A stretch of DNA of 50,715 nt from Gammaproteobacteria bacterium (lineage in GTDB: Bacteria; Pseudomonadota; Gammaproteobacteria; DSM-19610), in assembly GCA_026197075.1 (NCBI GenBank), contig JAPHQV010000039.1:1-50715 (forward strand), read 5' to 3'. Below the pieces are notes generated by a model. It had not been told where the DNA came from and searched no databases. It worked only from the letters and a program-made list of their open reading frames with translations. Shown piece after piece: positions 20,799 to 36,472 of the stretch. The stretch's first letter is position 1, and each line of letters opens with the position of its first letter. The position numbers and the translations under genes are program-made.

Positions 20799-21629
20799 GT
20801 GAAACTGGCAGTACTCTCCGACGTCCACGGTAATGTCCCCGCCCTGGGCGCGGTACTCGAGGACATCGAAGCCTGGGGTGCCGACCTGGTGATCGTGAAT
20901 GGCGACCTGGTCAGTCGTGGCCCCTGTAGCCTGGAGTGTCTGCACCTGCTGCAACGGCAGGTGCCCGGGGTTCACCTGCTGACCGGCAACCACGAAAGCT
21001 ATGTGCTGTACTGTGCCGATACCCCGGCGGACCCTGCCAGCCCCACCCATGACATCGATCGTTTCGCACGCTGGGCGGCGGCGGAACTGGGTGATGCGGT
21101 CGAGGAGATCCGCAACTGGGATGATCACCTCGATCTGACGGACCTGGAGGAGGGCGCGTCGGTGCACATCACCCATGGGTCAAGGCTCGGTAACCGTGAC
21201 GGCCTGTCGGTGCGCGTGCCTGATGAGGACCTTCCGGAAAAACTCGGGGATCCCCGTGACCTGTTCATCGGCTCCCATACCCACAAGCCCATGTTGCGGC
21301 ACTTCAATGGTTCGCTGGTGGTGAACACCGGTTCCGTGGGCCAGCCCATGGACGAGGATCCGCGCGCCGCCTATGGTCGTTTCACCCTGCAGGGTGGGCG
21401 CTGGCAGGCGGAGATCCGCCGCGTGGCCTATGACAAGGCGCGCGCCGAACAGGATTTCATCGACAGCGGTTTCCTGGCGGAGGCCGGCCCCGTCCCGGCC
21501 CTCATCCACCTGGAACTGCAGCAATCCCGTGCCCACCTCGGTCCCTGGCGACGCGCATACCTTGCCGCCATCAAGGCGGGTGAGATCAGCGTGGTGGAAT
21601 CCATCGCCCGTTATCGAGATACCCTGTAG
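20799..21629 (+). CDS. Calcineurin-like metallophosphoesterase
   Basis: A 276-residue cytosolic metallophosphoesterase with the full metal site: SDVHGN (residues 7-12), NGDLVSRG, GNHESY, ITHGS and GSHTHKP. It resembles the YfcE/MJ0936-type phosphodiesterases, extended at the C-terminus by about 70 residues. Substrate unknown. The start is GTG 20799 (MKLAVLSDVHGN) with GGGAG upstream. Its TAG stop is the TAG in CTGTAGGAGCGGCC, a truncated copy of the GTAGGAGCGG repeat, followed directly by another palindrome that can end transcription from both sides. Confidence 0.88.
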   Translation: MKLAVLSDVHGNVPALGAVLEDIEAWGADLVIVNGDLVSRGPCSLECLHLLQRQVPGVHLLTGNHESYVLYCADTPADPASPTHDIDRFARWAAAELGDAVEEIRNWDDHLDLTDLEEGASVHITHGSRLGNRDGLSVRVPDEDLPEKLGDPRDLFIGSHTHKPMLRHFNGSLVVNTGSVGQPMDEDPRAAYGRFTLQGGRWQAEIRRVAYDKARAEQDFIDSGFLAEAGPVPALIHLELQQSRAHLGPWRRAYLAAIKAGEISVVESIARYRDTL

Positions 21630-21704: not shown

Positions 21705-23717
21705 TCAGGGCCGCCAGCCCAGCTCGTCGGCGCGCTGACGCGCCAGCGCCGGTACGTCCCCGGCGATGAAATGTCGGTGCAGGATCTGCACGCCGAGCAT
21801 GTGGTTGATGACCGCGTCCAGCTGCACCTGGGTGGAGGTGGTGGTGTCGGGGGCGTCATGCAGGTCGAACAGGGCCTGTACACCCTCCACGTCCAGCAGG
21901 CCGGCCTCTTCGATGCGCTGTGGGGTCAGGTACTCATCGGCCAGGCGGCGCATGGCGGCCCATTTCTTCGGGTCGGTGTGGGCCGGCGGCGCCATGAAGG
22001 CGAACTTCTCGCGCTCGTACAGCACCCGCGGCAGCACGCCCTTCATGGCCTCGCGCAGCACGTATTTCTCCGTGCGGCCGTTGATGCGCATCTCCGGCGG
22101 CAGGGTGCAGGCGTACTCGGCCAGGTGATGGTCGAGGAAGGCGGGGCGCGCCTCCATGGAGTTGGCCATGTCCACGCGGTCGCCGCCCCAGGTGAGGATC
22201 TGGCCCTCCAGCATGGTCTTGATCCAGACGTACTGGGCCTTGTCCAGCGGGTGGCGGCCTTCCAGCATGTCGCCGTCGATGGCGTCGGCGATGGCGCGCC
22301 CCGGTTCATAGCCCTCCACCTCGCGGCGCAGGTCTTCCGCCATCAGGCCCGGCACATGGGTGGCCGCGGCCAGCCAGGGTTGCAGGCAGCTGGGCGTGAA
22401 GCCCACCAGGGCATCGAGGGCCGGGTCGTGCAGGTCGTTCTCCGCCAGCATGGCGCCCTTGAACAGCTGGTTGCTCTCCGCCAGCAGTTGTTCCCAGCCG
22501 GCGCGGTCGGCGGCGGACAGGGTATCGAGGCCGTGCAGGAACATGTCGCGGCGAAAGGCGGGGTAGCCGGCGAACAGCTCGTCGGAACCCTCGCCGGTGA
22601 CCACTACCTTGTAGCCCGACGCGTAGACATGGCGGCTCATGAGGAACTTGGCCACGCCCAGGGTGTTGTAGATGGTGCGTTCCGCGTGCCACAGGGTCTC
22701 GGGCAGGTTGTCGTACAGGTGGTCGCCCTGCAGCCGCAGGATGTCCTGGTCGGCGCCCACGGACTCGGCCATCTCGCGGGCGATGGCGGTCTCGTCGTAG
22801 TCGGTGTCGTCGAAGCCGATGGTGAAGGCCTTCACCGGCGACTGCTGGGAGGCGGAACTCAGGCCCAGGATGGCGCAGGAATCGATGCCGCCGGAGAGGT
22901 AACAGGCCACCGGCACGTCGGCCTCCAGGCGCAGCTGCACCGCTTCCATCAGCTTACTGCGTACCCCCTCGATGTACTGTTCCTCGTCACCCATGGGACC
23001 GCGTTCGGAGAGCAGCGGGAAATCCATATCCCAGTATTTGCGGTCCTCGATCTGGAACTTGCCATGGAGGCGACGAATGATGAGGGCGTGGCCGGGCTTG
23101 ATCTGGTGGATATTCTCGAAGGCGGTACTGCCCGGCACCATGGTTTGCATGAGCTGGTGGTACAGGCCCGTGGCGCTCATACGTCGCGGCACCTCGGGAT
23201 GGGCGAACACCACCTTGAGCTCGGAGCCGAACACGATCTTGCCATTGACCTCGGTCCAGTACAGGGGCTTCACGCCGAAGCGGTCGCGCACCAGGATCAG
23301 GCTGTCTTCCTGGCGGTCATAGAGGGCGAAGCCGAATTCGCCGCGCAGGTGGGGCAGCATGCCGTCCAGACCCAGGCGTGGGTACAGGTGCAGTACCAGT
23401 TCCGAATCGCTCTTGGTGCGAAAGCGCGCACCGCGCGAGGTCAGGTCGGTGCGGATGCGCTTGTAATCGTAGAACTCGCCATTGTGAGCAAGCAGCAGCT
23501 GTTCGTCCTCCGACAGGAAGGGCTGGCGCGCGCGGTTCTCGTCCAGGTCAATGATGGACAGGCGCGCATGGCTGAAGCCCACACCAAGATCGTCCAGGGT
23601 CTTCCAGCCGAAGCCGTCGGGGCCGCGGTGGTACTGGATGGCGGCCATGTTGACCAGCAGCTGCGGGTCGATGGCTTGATGGGGGTCAGAATGAAAGATT
23701 CCGGCTATGCCGCACAT
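21705..23717 (-). CDS. asnB: Glutamine-dependent asparagine synthetase family
   Basis: A 670-residue cytosolic amidotransferase. The start must be MCGIAGIFH (ATG 23717), which exposes the catalytic Cys after Met removal; upstream in-frame codons are discarded. The N-terminal glutaminase domain (to ~210) contains IQYHRGPDGFGW, LAHNGEFYDY and RDRFGVKPLYW. The C-terminal synthetase domain (~250-620) contains the pyrophosphate loop YLSGGIDSCAI and VVVTGEGSDELFAGYPAF. It is about 115 residues longer than E. coli AsnB. It could serve ordinary asparagine synthesis or amidate another acid. It lies downstream of the carbamoyl operon on the same strand, but a repeat separates them. Confidence 0.9.
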   Translation of the reverse strand: MCGIAGIFHSDPHQAIDPQLLVNMAAIQYHRGPDGFGWKTLDDLGVGFSHARLSIIDLDENRARQPFLSEDEQLLLAHNGEFYDYKRIRTDLTSRGARFRTKSDSELVLHLYPRLGLDGMLPHLRGEFGFALYDRQEDSLILVRDRFGVKPLYWTEVNGKIVFGSELKVVFAHPEVPRRMSATGLYHQLMQTMVPGSTAFENIHQIKPGHALIIRRLHGKFQIEDRKYWDMDFPLLSERGPMGDEEQYIEGVRSKLMEAVQLRLEADVPVACYLSGGIDSCAILGLSSASQQSPVKAFTIGFDDTDYDETAIAREMAESVGADQDILRLQGDHLYDNLPETLWHAERTIYNTLGVAKFLMSRHVYASGYKVVVTGEGSDELFAGYPAFRRDMFLHGLDTLSAADRAGWEQLLAESNQLFKGAMLAENDLHDPALDALVGFTPSCLQPWLAAATHVPGLMAEDLRREVEGYEPGRAIADAIDGDMLEGRHPLDKAQYVWIKTMLEGQILTWGGDRVDMANSMEARPAFLDHHLAEYACTLPPEMRINGRTEKYVLREAMKGVLPRVLYEREKFAFMAPPAHTDPKKWAAMRRLADEYLTPQRIEEAGLLDVEGVQALFDLHDAPDTTTSTQVQLDAVINHMLGVQILHRHFIAGDVPALARQRADELGWRP

Positions 23718-23750
23718 GATTACTCTCTTTGCCAAAAAATTGAATGATTC

Positions 23751-23825
23751 CCCTGTAGGAGCGGCCTCTGGCCGCGAACGGTCTGTGGTAACCCGGTTCG
23801 CGGGCGAAGCCCGCTCCTACAGGGG
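23751..23825. repeat. GTAGGAGCGGCC-type inverted repeat
   Basis: Left arm 23751-23779 and right arm 23796-23825 pair over most of their length. The inner part differs (CCTCTGGCC against GGCGAAGCC), so the arms come from two sub-variants of the family. It lies between the carbamoyltransferase gene and asnB. Confidence 0.85.
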
Positions 23826-23850
23826 GTATGTGGCGATTCTGAAATGACAA

Positions 23851-23893: not shown

Positions 23894-24943
23894 TCAAAAC
23901 CGCACCAGCGTCGTCATCAGCGCCATGCGCACATAGACGGCGCCGCGCGCCTGGGCGAAATACCAGTTATGGGGGGTGTCATCCAGGTCCGTCGACAGCT
24001 CCGCGCCGCGCGCCAGCGGATGCAGGATGATCGATCCCTCCTTGAGCTGGGATTGCTTGTTGAGCTGGTAGCGCACGCCATGCTCTTCGTAGCTGTCGCC
24101 CACCCAGGCGATGGCGTTGATGTATACCAGGTCGAGTTCCGGCAACACGGGATCCAGCTCATCGGTGACACGCAGCTTCAGGCCGGCGGCCTCCAGTTCC
24201 TCGCGCTGCTCCGGCGAGAAAATCTCCTCGCAGTCGCAGATCACCACTACCTCGCGGATGGTATGGCTGAACAGGGACAGGAACAGCAGCAGGCTGCGTA
24301 CCGTGCGCATGCGCCCCGGAACACCGATGATGCCGACGGTGATACGTTTTTCCTCGGGCACTTCATCCGCCAGCAGGTCCGGGCGCCATTTGAACAGGGC
24401 GTACATGTCCGCCAGGGCCTGGGTGGGATGCTCGTCGGTGCCGTTACCGGCGTTGATGATGGGGATGCGCGTCACGTCGAGCATCTCGTAGATGGCATCC
24501 TCGTGGGTGTCGCGCAGCACCACCATGTCGCCGTAGTGGTTCATCATCTCCGCCACGTCGTGCAGCGACTCGCCCTTGGCGATGCCGGTGGTGGCCGGGT
24601 CGGTGATGGTGATGATGTCACCGCCGAGGCGCTGCCACACGCTTTCGAAAGACAGCCGCGTGCGGGTGCTGGGCTCGTAGAAGGCGCTGATGAGGATCTT
24701 GCCCGTGAGCGGAAACTGGCCCATGGCCTGGGTGGTCTCGTACTTGGCCGCCAGGCGGCACAGCTGGACCACCTGTTCACGGCTGAACTGGCGCGCGGAC
24801 ACGACGGAGCGGCCGGCCAGGTCGGCCAGGCAGCCCGGTTCCTCCGGGATGTGTTCCAGCAGGGTCATGGGCAGCTCGATGCCGTCGATCCAGTTGGCCG
24901 GTTCCAGCCGTTCCTCGAGTCGGGGATGGGTCTTGTTCACCAT
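23894..24943 (-). CDS. Carbamoyltransferase of the ATCase/OTCase superfamily, substrate unknown
   Basis: A 349-residue enzyme, longer than the PyrB catalytic chain (~310). The carbamoyl-phosphate site is intact: EPSTRTRLSFE (STRTR 92-96), K123 in GIAKGES, and NAGNGTDEHPTQ (HPTQ 172-175). The C-terminal HPLARGAELSTDLDDTPHNW resembles ATCase HPLPRVDE. However, the segment of ATCase that holds the aspartate-binding Arg and Gln (TRVQ) reads NAIAW (276-280), so aspartate is an unlikely substrate. The HCLP motif of ornithine transcarbamylase is also absent. It overlaps the 40-aa membrane gene by seven bases and ends the amidase-symporter operon. It may run in the catabolic direction, yielding carbamoyl phosphate. 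Confidence 0.85.
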   Translation of the reverse strand: MVNKTHPRLEERLEPANWIDGIELPMTLLEHIPEEPGCLADLAGRSVVSARQFSREQVVQLCRLAAKYETTQAMGQFPLTGKILISAFYEPSTRTRLSFESVWQRLGGDIITITDPATTGIAKGESLHDVAEMMNHYGDMVVLRDTHEDAIYEMLDVTRIPIINAGNGTDEHPTQALADMYALFKWRPDLLADEVPEEKRITVGIIGVPGRMRTVRSLLLFLSLFSHTIREVVVICDCEEIFSPEQREELEAAGLKLRVTDELDPVLPELDLVYINAIAWVGDSYEEHGVRYQLNKQSQLKEGSIILHPLARGAELSTDLDDTPHNWYFAQARGAVYVRMALMTTLVRF

Positions 24944-25059
24944 AGTTGTCGTTGCTTCCAGTCGCGTATCCAGAGGATGGCGAGTATCAGGGGGGCGGCC
25001 ATGGTGACCGCCAGGGCGATGAGCACCACGAGGCTCAGAAAGGCTTGTCCGGCAATCAT
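24937..25059 (-). CDS. 40-residue membrane peptide, probable symporter partner
   Basis: A 40-residue peptide with one long hydrophobic helix (residues ~6-31, LSLVVLIALAVTMAAPLILA region) and a basic end (WIRDWKQRQLW). The ATG overlaps the TGA of the symporter gene, and the peptide's stop lies inside the start of the carbamoyltransferase gene, so it is firmly built into the operon. Several sodium:solute symporters have small membrane partners, which suggests this one is a subunit; its sequence matches no family I know. Confidence 0.7.
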   Translation of the reverse strand: MIAGQAFLSLVVLIALAVTMAAPLILAILWIRDWKQRQLW

Positions 25060-26486
25060 CTGACCTCCTGGCGCAGGCTGTTCCAGTCGAAGGGTCGGGA
25101 CGAGGCGCGCCGTGCCAGCACCACCACCAGCATGGACACGAAGGCGGAGATGAGCGCGGCCACGTAGAAACCGATGGCGAAATAGCCCCACAGGCCGGCC
25201 GCCGTGCCCAGCACCATGGCCAGGGTGGCACCCGTGGTGCTGGCGCGCTTCCAGTACAGACCGGCCACGATGGGCCAGATGGTACTGGCCACGAAGGCGC
25301 CCATGAAATGCAGCACCGCCGCCAGGGTGGCCAGGCGCGGCAGGCACAACAGCCAGGTGAACAGGCCGAGGCCGAGGACCACCCAGCGCGCCGCCTTGTA
25401 CAGGTGTTCCGGGCTGGCATCCGGCTTCAGGTGTCCCTTGTAGACATCGCGCAGCACCAGGTCACTGGTGGCGGCGAGCAGGGAGTCGAGGCTGGAGGCG
25501 AGCGCCGAGAACACCACGATGAATACCAGGACGGCGCCGCCCATGCCGAGCAGTTCAGCGGCCACCATGGGGCCGACCATGTCCGCGGAGGGCACGTTCA
25601 GGCCCAGGGCCGGCGCCGCCAGGGCGACGAAGCCGGCGACGATCGGCACGGGCAGCCACAGCAGCCCGGCCAGCAGGTAGGCGCGGAAGCCGACGCCCTG
25701 GCGGAAGGCGAAGGCGCGGCTCCACCAGACATTGGAATGGAAGATCTCGCCGATGCCGAACAGCAGGTTGTTGAACAGAAACATGATGGCAGCCGGCATC
25801 AGCAGGTTGAGCAGTTCCGGGCGCTCGGTGGCCAGGGTCGTGTGCATGGCGTCGAAGCCGACGCGGGTGATCACCAGCCAGGCGAGGATGCTGACGCCCA
25901 CCAGGATCAGCAGGGCCTGGATGAAGTCGGTGCCGATGACGGCGCGCAGCCCGCCCAGCAGGGTATAGGCCACGCAGATGAACAGGATGACGCTCATGCC
26001 GATGCGGTAGTCGATGCCGGTCAGGGCATGGATGAGCACGCCGCCGGCCATGCCCAGGCTCACCAGCCAGCCGATGGCGTAGACCAGGGAGATGAGCAGG
26101 AACACCCGCCAGGTGAGGTTGCCGTAGCGACGGCGGATGAAATCGCCGCTGGTGAAACCATTGGGCATCAGCTCGCGGATGCGGCGTGCCAGGGGCGCGA
26201 ACAGCATCAGGCCCACGGAGCCCAGCGAATAGCCGAGGATGCCCCAGATGCCCAGCTGGTAGGCCAGCTGTGGCGCCGCCATGGTGGTGTTGCTGGTCAT
26301 CCAGGTGGCCATGGCGGTGGCGGCACCCAGGGCCAGGCCCACGTTGCGCCCGGCCAGGGTATAGCCTTCCAGGTCCTTGGTCTTGCGACCGAAGAACCAG
26401 CCCAGCCAGATCCACAGGAGGCTGAACAGGGCGAGGATCACCCAGCCGGTGTTGGCGTCGAGGATGGCGGTTTGCACGCTGTTCAT
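25056..26486 (-). CDS. Sodium:solute symporter (SSS family)
   Basis: An inner-membrane transporter of 476 residues with about thirteen hydrophobic segments and the SSS core. The YTLAGRNVGLALGAATAMAT region, FTSGDFIRRRYG, and the SALASSLDSLLAATSDLVLRD segment that contributes to the Na+ site are recognisable. The opening AGRN...TWMTSNTTMAAPQLAYQ recalls the DUR3-like urea/polyamine branch, but I would not fix the substrate. It is coupled by four-base overlaps to the upstream amidohydrolase gene and to the 40-aa gene downstream, so it most probably imports the compound these enzymes handle. Confidence 0.9.
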   Translation of the reverse strand: MNSVQTAILDANTGWVILALFSLLWIWLGWFFGRKTKDLEGYTLAGRNVGLALGAATAMATWMTSNTTMAAPQLAYQLGIWGILGYSLGSVGLMLFAPLARRIRELMPNGFTSGDFIRRRYGNLTWRVFLLISLVYAIGWLVSLGMAGGVLIHALTGIDYRIGMSVILFICVAYTLLGGLRAVIGTDFIQALLILVGVSILAWLVITRVGFDAMHTTLATERPELLNLLMPAAIMFLFNNLLFGIGEIFHSNVWWSRAFAFRQGVGFRAYLLAGLLWLPVPIVAGFVALAAPALGLNVPSADMVGPMVAAELLGMGGAVLVFIVVFSALASSLDSLLAATSDLVLRDVYKGHLKPDASPEHLYKAARWVVLGLGLFTWLLCLPRLATLAAVLHFMGAFVASTIWPIVAGLYWKRASTTGATLAMVLGTAAGLWGYFAIGFYVAALISAFVSMLVVVLARRASSRPFDWNSLRQEVR

Positions 26487-27220
26487 GTCACGACCTTGCA
26501 GGTCTCCCCCACCGCCTGGTCGGTGGTCAATACCCGCGAGTAGCGGTCCTTGAGGGTGCGAATCGTGGCCTCGTGCAGTTCCGGGGTCACGGTGGCGCAG
26601 GCATCATCGATCAGGGTGGTGTAATAGCCCAGATCGCAGGCGTCGCGCACGGCGGTGGAGATGCATTCATTGGTATAGACGCCGCACACGAACAGGCCGG
26701 TGATGCCCATGTTGCGCAGGATGAAATCCAGGTTGGTGGCGTTGAACACGCCGCTGGCGGTCTTGTTGATGATGATCTCGTCCCCCTTGGGGGCGATCTC
26801 CGGCAGGAATTCCGCTTCCTTGGAGCCGGGCGCCGCATGCAGGCCGAGGCGCTTGTGGCCGGCGCTGCGGTCGCGGCCGTCCTTGGTCAGGGACTGGATA
26901 CGGGTATGGATCACCTCCAGGCCGTTGGAGCGGAAACAATCCTGGAGGCGGCGCACATTGGGCAGCACCACGCGCCTGAGGCGGTCGAAATAATATTCCT
27001 CGGCCTGTAGCGGCATCTTATCGTGGTCGATGTTGGCAAACACGCCATAGCCGGGGGCCGCATCCAGGTACTGGATGTCGATGACCAGCAGGGCGGTATG
27101 GTGTTGCTCCAGGGATGCCTGGATGGCTTCCACCGGGGTGATGGATTCGCGGTAGGTTTCCTGCAGCGGATCCACGTCCAGGAACTCGGGGTCGAGGGCG
27201 GGCGGTTTACGGTCGGTCAT
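26483..27220 (-). CDS. Isochorismatase-family cysteine amidohydrolase
   Basis: A 245-residue hydrolase with catalytic D48 (LLVIDIQYLDA), K153 (IIINKTASGVFN) and C186 (VYTNECISTAVRDA). The subfamily includes N-carbamoylsarcosine amidohydrolase, ureidoacrylate hydrolase (RutB) and biuret hydrolase, which release carbamate or ammonia from carbamoylated compounds. Residues 1-40 form an N-terminal extension. The ATG overlaps the M20 amidase stop and the stop overlaps the symporter start, both as ATGA. Its place between a carbamoylase-type amidase and a transporter suggests a step in ureide breakdown. Confidence 0.87.
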   Translation of the reverse strand: MTDRKPPALDPEFLDVDPLQETYRESITPVEAIQASLEQHHTALLVIDIQYLDAAPGYGVFANIDHDKMPLQAEEYYFDRLRRVVLPNVRRLQDCFRSNGLEVIHTRIQSLTKDGRDRSAGHKRLGLHAAPGSKEAEFLPEIAPKGDEIIINKTASGVFNATNLDFILRNMGITGLFVCGVYTNECISTAVRDACDLGYYTTLIDDACATVTPELHEATIRTLKDRYSRVLTTDQAVGETCKVVT

Positions 27221-28461
27221 TGGGGCGCTCCCGCCAGCTGATACAGGGTATTGAGCAGGGTATTGGCGCCGCGCTCGATGTCTTCCATGGCCGTCCATTC
27301 CGCGGTGGAATGGCTGCGACCCTCCTGGCTGGGCACGAACACCATGCCGGTGCGGGTCACGTGATTCATGATCTGGGTGTCATGCGCCGCACCGCTGTGC
27401 AGGGTCAGGCTGTCGATGCCCAGCTCCACCGCGGCCCGGTCGATGGTGGCGATGATACCCGGATCACATTTCACCGGTGCGATCTCGCTCAGCACCTCGA
27501 ACTCGAACATCAGCCCGCGGCGTCGCGCGATGCTGGACAGGGTGCGGCGACAGGCCTGGCCCAGGGCCGCGAGCACTTCCGCGTCGGTGTCGCGCACGTC
27601 CAGGGAAAACTGTGCCAGTCCCGGCACCACATTGGCCGCGCCCGGCTTCAGCTCCATGCGGCCGATGGTGGCGACGCTGCGCGGGCTGCCATGCTCATCG
27701 AGGATGCGCGCCAGGGCGGCGGCGAATTCGGCGGCGCCCTGGAAGGCGTCACTGCGCATGTCCATGGGCGTGGTACCGGCGTGGTTGGCCACGCCGATGA
27801 GGCGGATCTCCCACTTGAACAGGCCGGCGATGCCGCTCACCACCCCCACGGAACAGCCCTGGCGGTCCAGCACCGGCCCCTGTTCGATGTGCAGTTCCAC
27901 GAAGGCCGCCAGGCTTTCCGGGCTGCGCCGCGCGTGCAGGGCCTGCATGGCGTCGTAGCCGCAGGCCGCCATGGCCTCCGTCAGGCTGATGCCGTCCAGG
28001 TCGCGGGCGTTATGGATGCGTTCCGGGGTGAGCAGGCCGGCGATGGCCTGGGAGCCGAACAAGCCGCCGAAGCGGCCTTCCTCGTCACTGAAGGCCACTG
28101 CCTCCAGGGCGTGGCGCAGGGGCAGGTCCAATTCCTTGAGGCGGCGCAGGCATTCCAGGGATACCAGTACCCCCAGGGCGCCGTCCAGGTGGCCGGCGCC
28201 GGGCACCGTGTCCAGGTGCGAACCGGTCATGACGCTGGGGCGCCGGCCATCCCAGTGCAAACGGCCGTGGAGGTTGGCGGCACCGTCTTCGTACAGTTCC
28301 AGGCCGGCGTCCGCGATGCGCTGTTTCAGCCAGGCGCGGCCGGCCAGGTCGCCCGGCGAGAAGGCCATGCGGTACAGGCCGCGATCACCGTCACGGCCGA
28401 TCTCCGCCAGGGCCTCGATGTCGGCCTGCAGGCGCGGCAGGTCGATCCGCAGTGGTTTCAT
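27217..28461 (-). CDS. M20-family zinc amidase (N-carbamoyl-amino acid / allantoate hydrolase type)
   Basis: A 414-residue cytosolic dinuclear-metal hydrolase of the hydantoinase/carbamoylase group. Metal and catalytic residues appear as H82 (TGSHLDTV), D93 (HLDGALG), E127-E128 (SDEEGRFGG), H191 (ELHIEQGP) and the final histidine in GRSHSTAEW; the group motif SGAAHD is also present. Such enzymes cleave N-carbamoyl-L-amino acids, allantoate or ureidoglycine analogues, releasing CO2 and ammonia. The substrate cannot be read from sequence. It is coupled by ATGA overlaps to the genes on both sides. The open frame continues upstream through the FN3 gene but is non-coding there. Confidence 0.88.
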   Translation of the reverse strand: MKPLRIDLPRLQADIEALAEIGRDGDRGLYRMAFSPGDLAGRAWLKQRIADAGLELYEDGAANLHGRLHWDGRRPSVMTGSHLDTVPGAGHLDGALGVLVSLECLRRLKELDLPLRHALEAVAFSDEEGRFGGLFGSQAIAGLLTPERIHNARDLDGISLTEAMAACGYDAMQALHARRSPESLAAFVELHIEQGPVLDRQGCSVGVVSGIAGLFKWEIRLIGVANHAGTTPMDMRSDAFQGAAEFAAALARILDEHGSPRSVATIGRMELKPGAANVVPGLAQFSLDVRDTDAEVLAALGQACRRTLSSIARRRGLMFEFEVLSEIAPVKCDPGIIATIDRAAVELGIDSLTLHSGAAHDTQIMNHVTRTGMVFVPSQEGRSHSTAEWTAMEDIERGANTLLNTLYQLAGAPQ

Positions 28462-28940
28462 GCCCCGTCTCCCCGTCGGCGGTTGCCCACCAGGATGGCG
28501 GCCAGGGTGGCGAGAAACACCAGGGCGCCCATGGCGAAGAATAGCAGGGCGCGGGACAGGGGGTGGTGGCGTACCTCGACGCGCAGGGTCTGTGACCAGG
28601 GGCCGGGGCCGTCCTGGTGGAGGGCGCGCAGACGGTAATGGTATTCGCCGTCGGGGCGTCCGGTCAGCATGGTGGCCCGGTCCGCGCCGCGGTAGAGAGT
28701 CACGGGGTCGGAAAAGTCCGCGTGCAGGGATTCCTGCAACTCGTGGTCGGTGGCACCCCCCCCATCCCATTGCAGCTGATAGTAGCCCGCGGTGGCCAAT
28801 GGGGTGTCCGTCTCCAGGCCGGGGGCCGCCAGGGCCACGCCCGGAGAGGCCAGCAACAGAACGCACAAGACCAGGGGATGATGCAGGAGTGGGCGATAGC
28901 ACCCGGACTTCAGGAGCAGGAACAGGCCGTCACGGGCCAT
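28458..28940 (-). CDS. Secreted/anchored protein with one fibronectin-III-like domain
   Basis: A 160-residue protein. An N-terminal signal sequence (HPLVLCVLLLASPGVALAAP, ending near residue 44) is followed by one Fn3-like domain (~45-130, with YYQLQWDGG, LYRGADRATML, GEYHYRLRALHQDGPGPWSQ) and a C-terminal membrane helix (~134-152) ending in RRRGDGA. The Fn3 part would face the periplasm. A TTG start at 28967 would add nine residues; ATG 28940 is chosen but no strong ribosome site is seen. It overlaps the M20 amidase start and is the first gene of the operon. Its role beside cytosolic amidases is unexplained. Confidence 0.7.
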   Translation of the reverse strand: MARDGLFLLLKSGCYRPLLHHPLVLCVLLLASPGVALAAPGLETDTPLATAGYYQLQWDGGGATDHELQESLHADFSDPVTLYRGADRATMLTGRPDGEYHYRLRALHQDGPGPWSQTLRVEVRHHPLSRALLFFAMGALVFLATLAAILVGNRRRGDGA

Positions 28941-28983: not shown

Positions 28984-29039
28984 ACTCCACTGCTACAGGG
29001 AAACGGGATGGGGGAAACAGGATGACAGTACAGTGGAGT
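28984..29039. other. Spaced 9-base inverted repeat upstream of the ureide operon
   Basis: ACTCCACTG (28984-28992) and CAGTGGAGT (29031-29039) are exact inverted copies separated by 38 bases, in the divergent region between the FN3-first operon and cfa. It could be a pair of regulator half-sites or chance. Confidence 0.3.
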
Positions 29040-29111
29040 ACCGAATCATTGTGCCATTATCGGCGCGGAAATGCACATTTACCCCGAATTTACGCAGTTT
29101 TTGCCGAAAAC

Positions 29112-29139
29112 TTGCGGCTTGTGGGTTGGCGCCTATAGT
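29112..29139 (+). promoter_or_regulatory. Candidate promoter of cfa
   Basis: TTGCGG at 29112-29117, a 16-base spacer and TATAGT at 29134-29139. The transcript would begin just before a 12-bp hairpin in the leader. Confidence 0.45.
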
Positions 29140-29146
29140 TAGTGGA

Positions 29147-29178
29147 ACGGCTTGTCGGGCCGCGGTCCGACAAGCCGT
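29147..29178 (+). promoter_or_regulatory. 12-bp hairpin in the cfa leader
   Basis: ACGGCTTGTCGG (29147-29158) pairs perfectly with 29167-29178 around an eight-base GC loop. No U-run follows, so it is not a standard terminator. It would lie near the 5' end of the cfa mRNA and could protect or regulate it. Confidence 0.5.
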
Positions 29179-29212
29179 CAATTCGCTGTCGTTTATCAAT
29201 GAGGTCACCGCC

Positions 29213-30388
29213 ATGCCCCGCAACGACAAGCTGGCCCTGGGCCGATTGAAGGACACCGAGCGTCGTTCCACGGCACCCCCCGAGTCCCTGCGTCGCCTTG
29301 CGGCGGAGGCGGGCGTTGCCTTCAACGGCAGCGCGCCCTGGGACATCCAGGTATACGATCCGCAAGTCTATAGCCGTATCTTTTCCCATGGTTCCTTAGG
29401 TTTTGGCCAGGCTTACATGGACGGTCTTTGGGATGCGGAATCCCTGGACGAACTGTTCGCCCACCTGCTGCGCCATGACATCGACGCCAAGCTGGTGGGC
29501 CGGGTGCGGCTCCGCCTGCTGGGGGATGTGATGCGTCATCGCCTGTTCAATCTGCAGAAACGCGAGCGCGCCTTCCAGGTGGGTGAGCGCCACTACGACA
29601 TCGGCAATGAGGTGTTCACCGCCATGCTCGATTCCAGCATGAGCTATTCCTGTGGCTACTGGGAACGGGCCGATAACCTGGAACAGGCCCAGCAGGCCAA
29701 GCTGGACATGATCTGCCGCAAGCTGGAACTCAGGCCCGGTGAGCACCTGCTGGATATCGGGTGCGGCTGGGGCGGTCTGGCATACCATGCGGCGGCGCAC
29801 TATGGCGTGGAGGTCACCGGCATCACCGTGTCGAAAGAACAGCAGGAGATGGCCCGCGAGCGTTGTGCCGGACTGCCGGTGCACATCGAGCTGAAGGATT
29901 ACCGCGAACTCGAGGGCCGCTACGACAAGCTGGTTTCGGTGGGCATGTTCGAGCACGTGGGCCCGAGAAACTACCCGGTTTTTTTTGAAACCGCAGCGCG
30001 GCTCATGAAGGACGAGGGGTTGTTTCTGCTGCATACCATCGGCAACTTTCTGACCCGTCCCTGCGTCGATCCCTGGATCGATCGCTACATCTTCCCCAAT
30101 GGCAAGTTGCCCTCGGCGCGGGAGATCGCCACGGCGGTGGAGGGGGGATTTCTCATCGAGGACTGGCACAACTTCGGTGCCGACTACGATCGCACCCTCA
30201 TGGCCTGGTGGCGGAATTTCGATGCCGCCTGGCCGCGCCTCGAGGCCCGCTGCGGGCGGCGCTTCTATCGCATGTGGAAGTATTATCTGCACTGCTGCGC
30301 CGGCTTCTTCCGCTCCGGCCAGGGACAGCTGTGGCAACTGGTGCTGAGCCGGCGCGGCCGCCAGGCAGTGTATCGCTCGGTGCGTTGA
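29213..30388 (+). CDS. cfa: Cyclopropane-fatty-acyl-phospholipid synthase
   Basis: Transfers a methylene group from SAM to unsaturated acyl chains of membrane phospholipids, typically on entry to stationary phase or under stress. The 391 residues fit the family (E. coli 382). LLDIGCGWGGLAYHAA is the SAM motif, QVGERHYDIGNEVF the conserved entry, MSYSCGYW the active-site region, and SVGMFEHVGPRNY carries the bicarbonate-site glutamate region. ATG 29213 follows GAGG. The leader contains a strong hairpin, and the gene ends before a GTAGGAG-type palindrome. It is divergent from the ureide operon. Confidence 0.95.
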   Translation: MPRNDKLALGRLKDTERRSTAPPESLRRLAAEAGVAFNGSAPWDIQVYDPQVYSRIFSHGSLGFGQAYMDGLWDAESLDELFAHLLRHDIDAKLVGRVRLRLLGDVMRHRLFNLQKRERAFQVGERHYDIGNEVFTAMLDSSMSYSCGYWERADNLEQAQQAKLDMICRKLELRPGEHLLDIGCGWGGLAYHAAAHYGVEVTGITVSKEQQEMARERCAGLPVHIELKDYRELEGRYDKLVSVGMFEHVGPRNYPVFFETAARLMKDEGLFLLHTIGNFLTRPCVDPWIDRYIFPNGKLPSAREIATAVEGGFLIEDWHNFGADYDRTLMAWWRNFDAAWPRLEARCGRRFYRMWKYYLHCCAGFFRSGQGQLWQLVLSRRGRQAVYRSVR

Positions 30389-30417: not shown

Positions 30418-30494
30418 CCCTGCAGGAGCGGCCTCTGGCCGCGAACCGACCGCCGTGGTTCAACCCTTCGCGGCCAGAGGCCGCTCCTACAGGG
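30418..30494. repeat. GTAGGAGCGGCC-type inverted repeat after cfa
   Basis: 28-base arms (30418-30445 and 30467-30494) with one mismatch, both of the CCTCTGGCCGCGAA sub-variant. Confidence 0.88.
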
Positions 30495-36403: not shown

Positions 36404-36409
<6 letters not shown>

Positions 36410-36472
36410 GAGCGGGCTCTGCCCGCGAACCGGTTTGCCACGCCCGTTCGCGGGCAGAGCCCGCTCCTACGG
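36404..36472. repeat. Perfect GTAGGAGCGGGC-type palindrome carrying the tex stop
   Basis: 27-base arms (36404-36430 and 36446-36472) pair without mismatch. TAG at 36407-36409 ends tex. The inner variant is GGCTCTGCCCGCG rather than GCCTCTGGCCGCG. Confidence 0.9.

Follow-up and report, generated by a model that had tools for sequence, protein, structure and literature searches.

A seven-gene cluster in Gammaproteobacteria as a candidate locus for N-carbamoyl-glutamine amide biosynthesis, uptake and turnover

Results and Discussion

Overview of the gene cluster

The contig JAPHQV010000039.1 (50,715 bp, assembly GCA_026197075.1) of a gammaproteobacterium, hereafter the window, carries a seven-gene cluster that probably serves the biosynthesis, uptake and turnover of N-carbamoyl-glutamine amide (CGA) or a compound of that type. 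The description of CGA as a compatible solute dates from 1991. The core of the cluster is a carbamoyltransferase of a new subfamily (CT) and a glutamine-dependent, asparagine-synthetase-like amidotransferase (Asn). The other five genes encode an M20 amidohydrolase, an isochorismatase-family amidohydrolase, a sodium:solute symporter (SSS), a 40-aa membrane peptide and an Fn3-domain protein. This reading draws on the gene content, its conservation and modularity, the active-site residues and the presence of the locus in the type strain of the reported CGA producer; substrate, product, order of steps and osmotic role are predicted from these.

An initial annotation of the window had described a six-gene operon running from the Fn3 gene to CT. 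All six open reading frames (ORFs) exist on the minus strand at the coordinates it gave, and they overlap, in that order, by 4, 4, 4, 4 and 7 bases, as claimed. Hidden Markov models upheld the families named for M20, isochorismatase, SSS and CT, and the Fn3 label, made by eye, was borne out by AlphaFold2 and Foldseek. The six-gene unit was incomplete, since the conserved unit has seven genes and includes Asn. In the window, Asn shares the strand of CT and is the next gene downstream, after a gap of 176 bp that contains a palindrome resembling repetitive extragenic palindromic (REP) elements.

Conservation and modularity of the cluster

When 84,980 species genomes were scanned with an alignment of CT, 208 relatives emerged, and the best 80 loci were analysed. 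All seven genes occur in the order of the window at 45 of the 80 loci (38 with full flanks, 7 contig-limited), and the same order was also found in other families of the class, which argues that the cassette is not a chance arrangement. Five loci have the rearranged order Fn3-SSS-(peptide)-CT-M20-isochorismatase-Asn. Four of them come from spirochaetes; the set (L091, L092, L102, L104, L111) comprises spirochaete metagenome-assembled genomes (MAGs) and one unplaced MAG. The rearranged module in the spirochaete MAGs suggests transfer between phyla.

Nine loci, including all seven from Ectothiorhodospira, consist of M20-isochorismatase-CT-Asn without transport genes. No symporter, Fn3 or peptide gene was found at the Thiorhodospira, Ectothiorhodospira and two further loci, the search covering the loci themselves. 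The Idiomarina and Kangiella lineages and locus L106 have Fn3-SSS-(peptide)-CT-Asn without the isochorismatase. Genome-wide searches at E ≤ 1e-15 gave no isochorismatase match in three genomes of the Kangiella, Aliidiomarina and L106 lineages, and CT-Asn was kept in them. The M20 proteins of these three genomes are divergent (44–50% identity) and may act on a different intermediate. The corresponding genes (L161, L162, L163) adjoin the locus in L106 and Kangiella and lie elsewhere in Aliidiomarina. Most of the remaining loci among the 80 are cut by contig ends.

Asn is present at 76 of the 80 CT loci and follows CT closely at 71. Of the four loci without it, three reach the end of a contig; the last belongs to Thiorhodospira sibirica, in which CT, Asn, isochorismatase and M20 stand at four separate places on the main contig. 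The genes of T. sibirica are scattered but retained, so the link between CT and Asn does not rest on adjacency. Among 369 gammaproteobacterial genomes, 23 have CT (E < 1e-116), and the set with the isochorismatase (E < 1e-50) is identical. Asn (E < 1e-200) was found in 20 of these and in no other genome. Of the three misses, G258 has an Asn gene that its assembly splits over two frames, CT runs to the end of its contig in G052, and G353 is a genome of 75% completeness in which CT lies near the start of a contig. The initial annotation had called for such a co-occurrence search. The locus architectures and genome searches together give a recurring cassette in which CT-Asn is the invariant core, and Fn3, SSS and peptide on the one hand and M20 and isochorismatase on the other are two optional modules. 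The earlier view that the genes are one functional unit, probably for a carbamoylated compound, is supported.

Carbamoyltransferase

The CT protein has the OTCace_N and OTCace domains, the S-T-R-T motif, Arg105, His134 and Gln137, which place it in the carbamoyl-phosphate-dependent carbamoyltransferase superfamily. It scored 191.5 bits against the PyrB model TIGR00670 (cut-off 237) and 28.7 bits against the YgeW carbamoyltransferase model TIGR03316 (cut-off 500). Aligned with E. coli PyrB (L136), CT keeps S52-T-R-T55, K84, R105, H134, Q137 and R167. It thus shares with the PyrB proteins (2rgw, 1ml4 and E. coli PyrB) the family, the carbamoyl-phosphate site and Lys84, Arg105, His134 and Arg167, but differs in the loss of Arg229 and Gln231, an N-terminal extension of about 40 residues and other gene neighbours. 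Arg229 is replaced by Ala or Ser and Gln231 by Ala or Leu in 22/22 orthologues, whereas the compared PyrB sequences keep both. In aspartate carbamoyltransferase (ATCase), one carboxylate of aspartate is served by Arg167 and the other by Arg229/Gln231. The retention of Arg167 and the loss of Arg229/Gln231 therefore suggest that the substrate of CT is an amino acid with a free α-carboxylate and a non-acidic side chain. Judged by its sequence, CT is not PyrB, and the genome of the window encodes separate ArgF (L117) and PyrB (L118) proteins. In the phylogenetic tree, CT and a sister group split from PyrB with 99/100 support. CT is paraphyletic to this long-branched group, and the inner branching was not interpreted. 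A plasmid search with CT returned only pyrB-like genes of <60% identity.

The sister group was considered as a possible second pathway and rejected: neither Asn nor M20, isochorismatase or SSS genes adjoin it, and it has lost catalytic residues. Its members (L129:8212-9363, L130:3857-4927, L131:2486-3688, L132:8100-9317 and one at the end of L035) have 36–39% identity to CT. With S-T-R-T and other catalytic residues degraded, they are possibly non-catalytic carbamoyltransferase homologues.

Amidotransferase

The N-terminal MCG cysteine and a score of 414.9 bits against TIGR01536 (cut-off 267) place Asn in the glutamine-hydrolysing asparagine synthase superfamily. Asn passes no more specific equivalog model, and TIGR03104 gave 288.5 bits against a cut-off of 570. 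By its family, Asn, which constantly accompanies CT, is an ATP- and glutamine-using enzyme of a biosynthetic type.

In the operon of the osmolyte N-acetylglutaminylglutamine amide (NAGGN), AsnO/PA3459 amidates N-acetylglutaminylglutamine, and an acyltransferase and a hydrolase are encoded in the same operon (PMC8070244). By analogy, AsnO/PA3459 is the closest functional parallel of Asn. The NAGGN operon (asnO-ngg / PA3459-PA3461) would share its logic with the proposed CGA system: N-acyl transfer to glutamine followed by asparagine-synthase-type amidation, a hydrolase in the operon and a neutral glutamine-derived solute. The locus differs in that a carbamoyltransferase replaces the GNAT/peptide-forming Ngg, Asn is under the TIGR03104 cut-off, the hydrolases are M20 and isochorismatase and not a glutamyl aminopeptidase, and a symporter module is present. 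No match to the model of the GNAT-family Ngg partner (TIGR03103) was found among the seven proteins of the locus.

Hydrolases

M20 scored 382.5 bits against TIGR01879 (cut-off 204) and keeps the metal ligands, which places it in the hydantoinase/carbamoylase family. It has the same metal ligands as AllC and L-N-carbamoylase (3n5f, 1z2l), but it is below the cut-off of AllC (TIGR03176, 287 bits against 598) and of other equivalogs, and the cluster has no other allantoin gene. The Arg of its DVRD motif is conserved and aligned with the Arg that binds the substrate carboxylate in carbamoylases.

The Asp-Lys-Cys triad of the isochorismatase is conserved. BiuH (biuret/triuret hydrolases) and RutB share this amidohydrolase type, but the scores are far below their models (NF050097, 81 bits against 370; TIGR03614, 63 bits against 378), and unlike the biuret and rut systems the cluster has no allophanate hydrolase or rut genes. 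The biuret/triuret pathways of nitrifiers (PMC12625717) were rejected as a candidate on the BiuH score and the lack of an allophanate hydrolase in the cluster. These results support the initial annotation in setting the locus apart from the allantoin, rut, hydantoin and biuret operons, all the corresponding equivalog models being far below cut-off. The conserved residues of the two hydrolases would suit removal of the amide before decarbamoylation.

Transport genes

The best PDB match of SSS is the DUR3 urea symporter 9j7c. Both belong to the SSS family, but SSS is shorter, is below the specific SSS models and is accompanied by the peptide and the Fn3 protein. With few exceptions the peptide has a length of exactly 40 aa, and it ends in W; at 29 of the 80 loci it overlaps CT by 7 bases. 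The Fn3 protein has no Pfam or NCBIfam match. Its AlphaFold2 model (pLDDT 88) shows an Fn3 domain followed by one long C-terminal helix as an anchor, and the best Foldseek match in the PDB was the Fn3-like 3mpc (probability 1.00). The peptide and the Fn3 protein are proposed to be partners of the symporter, because both are missing together with SSS.

Proposed pathway and the CGA producer

The better-known named carriers of the locus are Thioalkalivibrio, Ectothiorhodospira, Thiohalophilus, Thiohalobacter, Kangiella, Aliidiomarina, Idiomarina and Thiodiazotropha. Their habitats are marine, hypersaline or soda-lake. CGA was found to accumulate as a solute in Ectothiorhodospira marismortui/mobilis (PMC1224877), the type strain of which is DSM 4180 (PMC7824335). 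E. mobilis DSM 4180 (L058) carries M20-isochorismatase-CT-Asn. The only three PF02729 proteins of this strain are ArgF (L139), PyrB (L140) and CT (L141). T. sibirica and E. magna were described as lacking betaine and ectoine synthesis (PMC7824335), and both carry the core. No gene assignment for CGA was found in the open-access literature, subscription literature being outside the search.

In the proposed pathway, CT would transfer the carbamoyl group of carbamoyl phosphate to the α-amino group of L-glutamine, giving N-carbamoyl-L-glutamine. Asn would then amidate the α-carboxylate with ATP and glutamine to form the uncharged CGA. CGA that has leaked out or is present in the environment may be taken up by the DUR3-like Na+ symporter, assisted by the 40-aa peptide and the Fn3 protein. 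When salinity falls, the isochorismatase-type hydrolase would take off the 1-amide, and the M20 carbamoylase would then remove the N-carbamoyl group to yield glutamine, CO2 and NH3. We lean towards the view that the cluster is the genetic basis of CGA and that CGA is widespread. This basis would comprise a new carbamoyltransferase specificity, that of an N-carbamoyl-L-glutamine synthase, together with an amidotransferase dedicated to the pathway, a degradation arm and a Na+ symporter in three parts, the 40-aa peptide being its subunit and the Fn3 protein its partner.

Alternative explanations

Several points weigh against the assignment to CGA. The evidence behind it is genomic. Glutamine and other neutral amino acids are inseparable by sequence alone, and the substrate reading leans on general knowledge of the α- and β-carboxylate roles of Arg167 and Arg229 in ATCase. 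Ectoine synthase, taken as a marker of salinity, was not positively associated with CT (2/23 carriers against 48/346 other genomes, Fisher p = 0.75). The locus in E. mobilis is partly expected, most carriers being related gammaproteobacteria from saline places. The CGA report covers one producer species, the other carriers being known here from their genes, and the identity of DSM 4180 with the exact 1991 culture rests on the type-strain designation. In one alternative, the same chemistry of N-carbamoylation, amidation, uptake and turnover would act on another neutral amino acid or give a product other than an osmolyte, such as a signal or a nitrogen store. The loss of Arg229/Gln231 argues only against an aspartate-like side chain, no residue proves glutamine, and a positive link with ectoine synthase is lacking. 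We consider this alternative unlikely, because the type strain of the reported producer has the locus and no other candidate enzyme of the superfamily, the named carriers are saline or soda-lake bacteria, and we know of no other carbamoyl-amino-acid-amide solute.

The initial annotation had proposed import followed by stepwise decarbamoylation, with possible recovery of carbamoyl phosphate. As a catabolic ureide operon, the cluster would import its substrate through SSS, hydrolyse it with M20 and isochorismatase and run CT in reverse. M20 and isochorismatase enzymes do hydrolyse ureido and amide compounds, and the symporter is nearest to DUR3 urea transporters. However, CT is constantly paired with an amidotransferase that uses ATP and glutamine, the transport genes are absent at the Ectothiorhodospira loci, three genomes have no isochorismatase match, and the cluster encodes no carbamate kinase. 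The equilibrium of carbamoyltransferases normally favours carbamoylation. The CT-Asn core, a CT without the aspartate pocket and the separate PyrB and ArgF also argue against import and decarbamoylation, and we regard a catabolic operon as improbable. The hydrolases are better explained as enzymes that recycle a compound made by the cell. In a third and very unlikely reading, CT supplies nucleotide or arginine synthesis as a paralogous aspartate or ornithine carbamoyltransferase, with Asn as a bystander. The ATCase family is nearest to CT (TIGR00670 and the ATCases in the PDB), and the REP-containing gap parts CT from Asn in the window. Yet CT is under the TIGR00670 cut-off with its aspartate pocket lost, PyrB and ArgF are encoded elsewhere in both genomes examined, and Asn stays close behind CT at most loci and persists in T. 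sibirica without linkage.

Features of the window

The features of the cluster are listed in Table 1. The window genes flanking the seven that were tested did not recur at other loci and were excluded from the unit. A cyclopropane-fatty-acyl-phospholipid-synthase-like ORF (by eye; 29033-30388, plus strand) is divergent from the cassette and is not conserved beside it elsewhere. REP-like palindromes with TGTAGGAGCGG arms gave 8 matches in the window against 0.7 expected. They lie at 21625, 23754-23821, 30421-30491, 33993 and 36405-36471, the second of these sites being the one between the CT and Asn genes.

Table 1. Coordinates and proposed roles of the cluster features in the window.
Feature	Position	Strand	Length	Remarks
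Fn3-domain protein, periplasmic	28458-28940	-	160 aa	Signal-like N-terminal helix, C-terminal transmembrane anchor; transport module
M20 N-carbamoyl-amino-acid amidohydrolase	27217-28461	-	414 aa	Turnover module
Isochorismatase-family cysteine amidohydrolase	26483-27220	-	245 aa	Turnover module, proposed 1-amide removal
SSS sodium:solute symporter	25056-26486	-	476 aa	Transport module; closest solved relatives are DUR3 urea symporters
Single-transmembrane micropeptide	24937-25059	-	40 aa	C-terminus of D-W-K/R...L-W type; proposed symporter small subunit
Carbamoyltransferase (CT), new subfamily	23894-24943	-	349 aa	Core biosynthetic gene (predicted)
Glutamine-dependent asparagine-synthetase-like amidotransferase (Asn)	21705-23717	-	670 aa	MCGIAG N-terminus; core biosynthetic gene (predicted)
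REP-like palindrome	23749-23826			Between CT and Asn genes; outside the conserved module

Significance

If the assignment is correct, the occurrence of CGA as an osmolyte would extend widely among marine and soda-lake bacteria, with spread to spirochaetes as well, and CGA would not be the curiosity of one species. The locus would provide a defined, testable pathway, a new substrate class of carbamoyltransferases and a genetic marker suggesting that CGA is widespread. It would also probably explain how salt is tolerated by bacteria such as T. sibirica, which has no annotated osmoprotectant genes.

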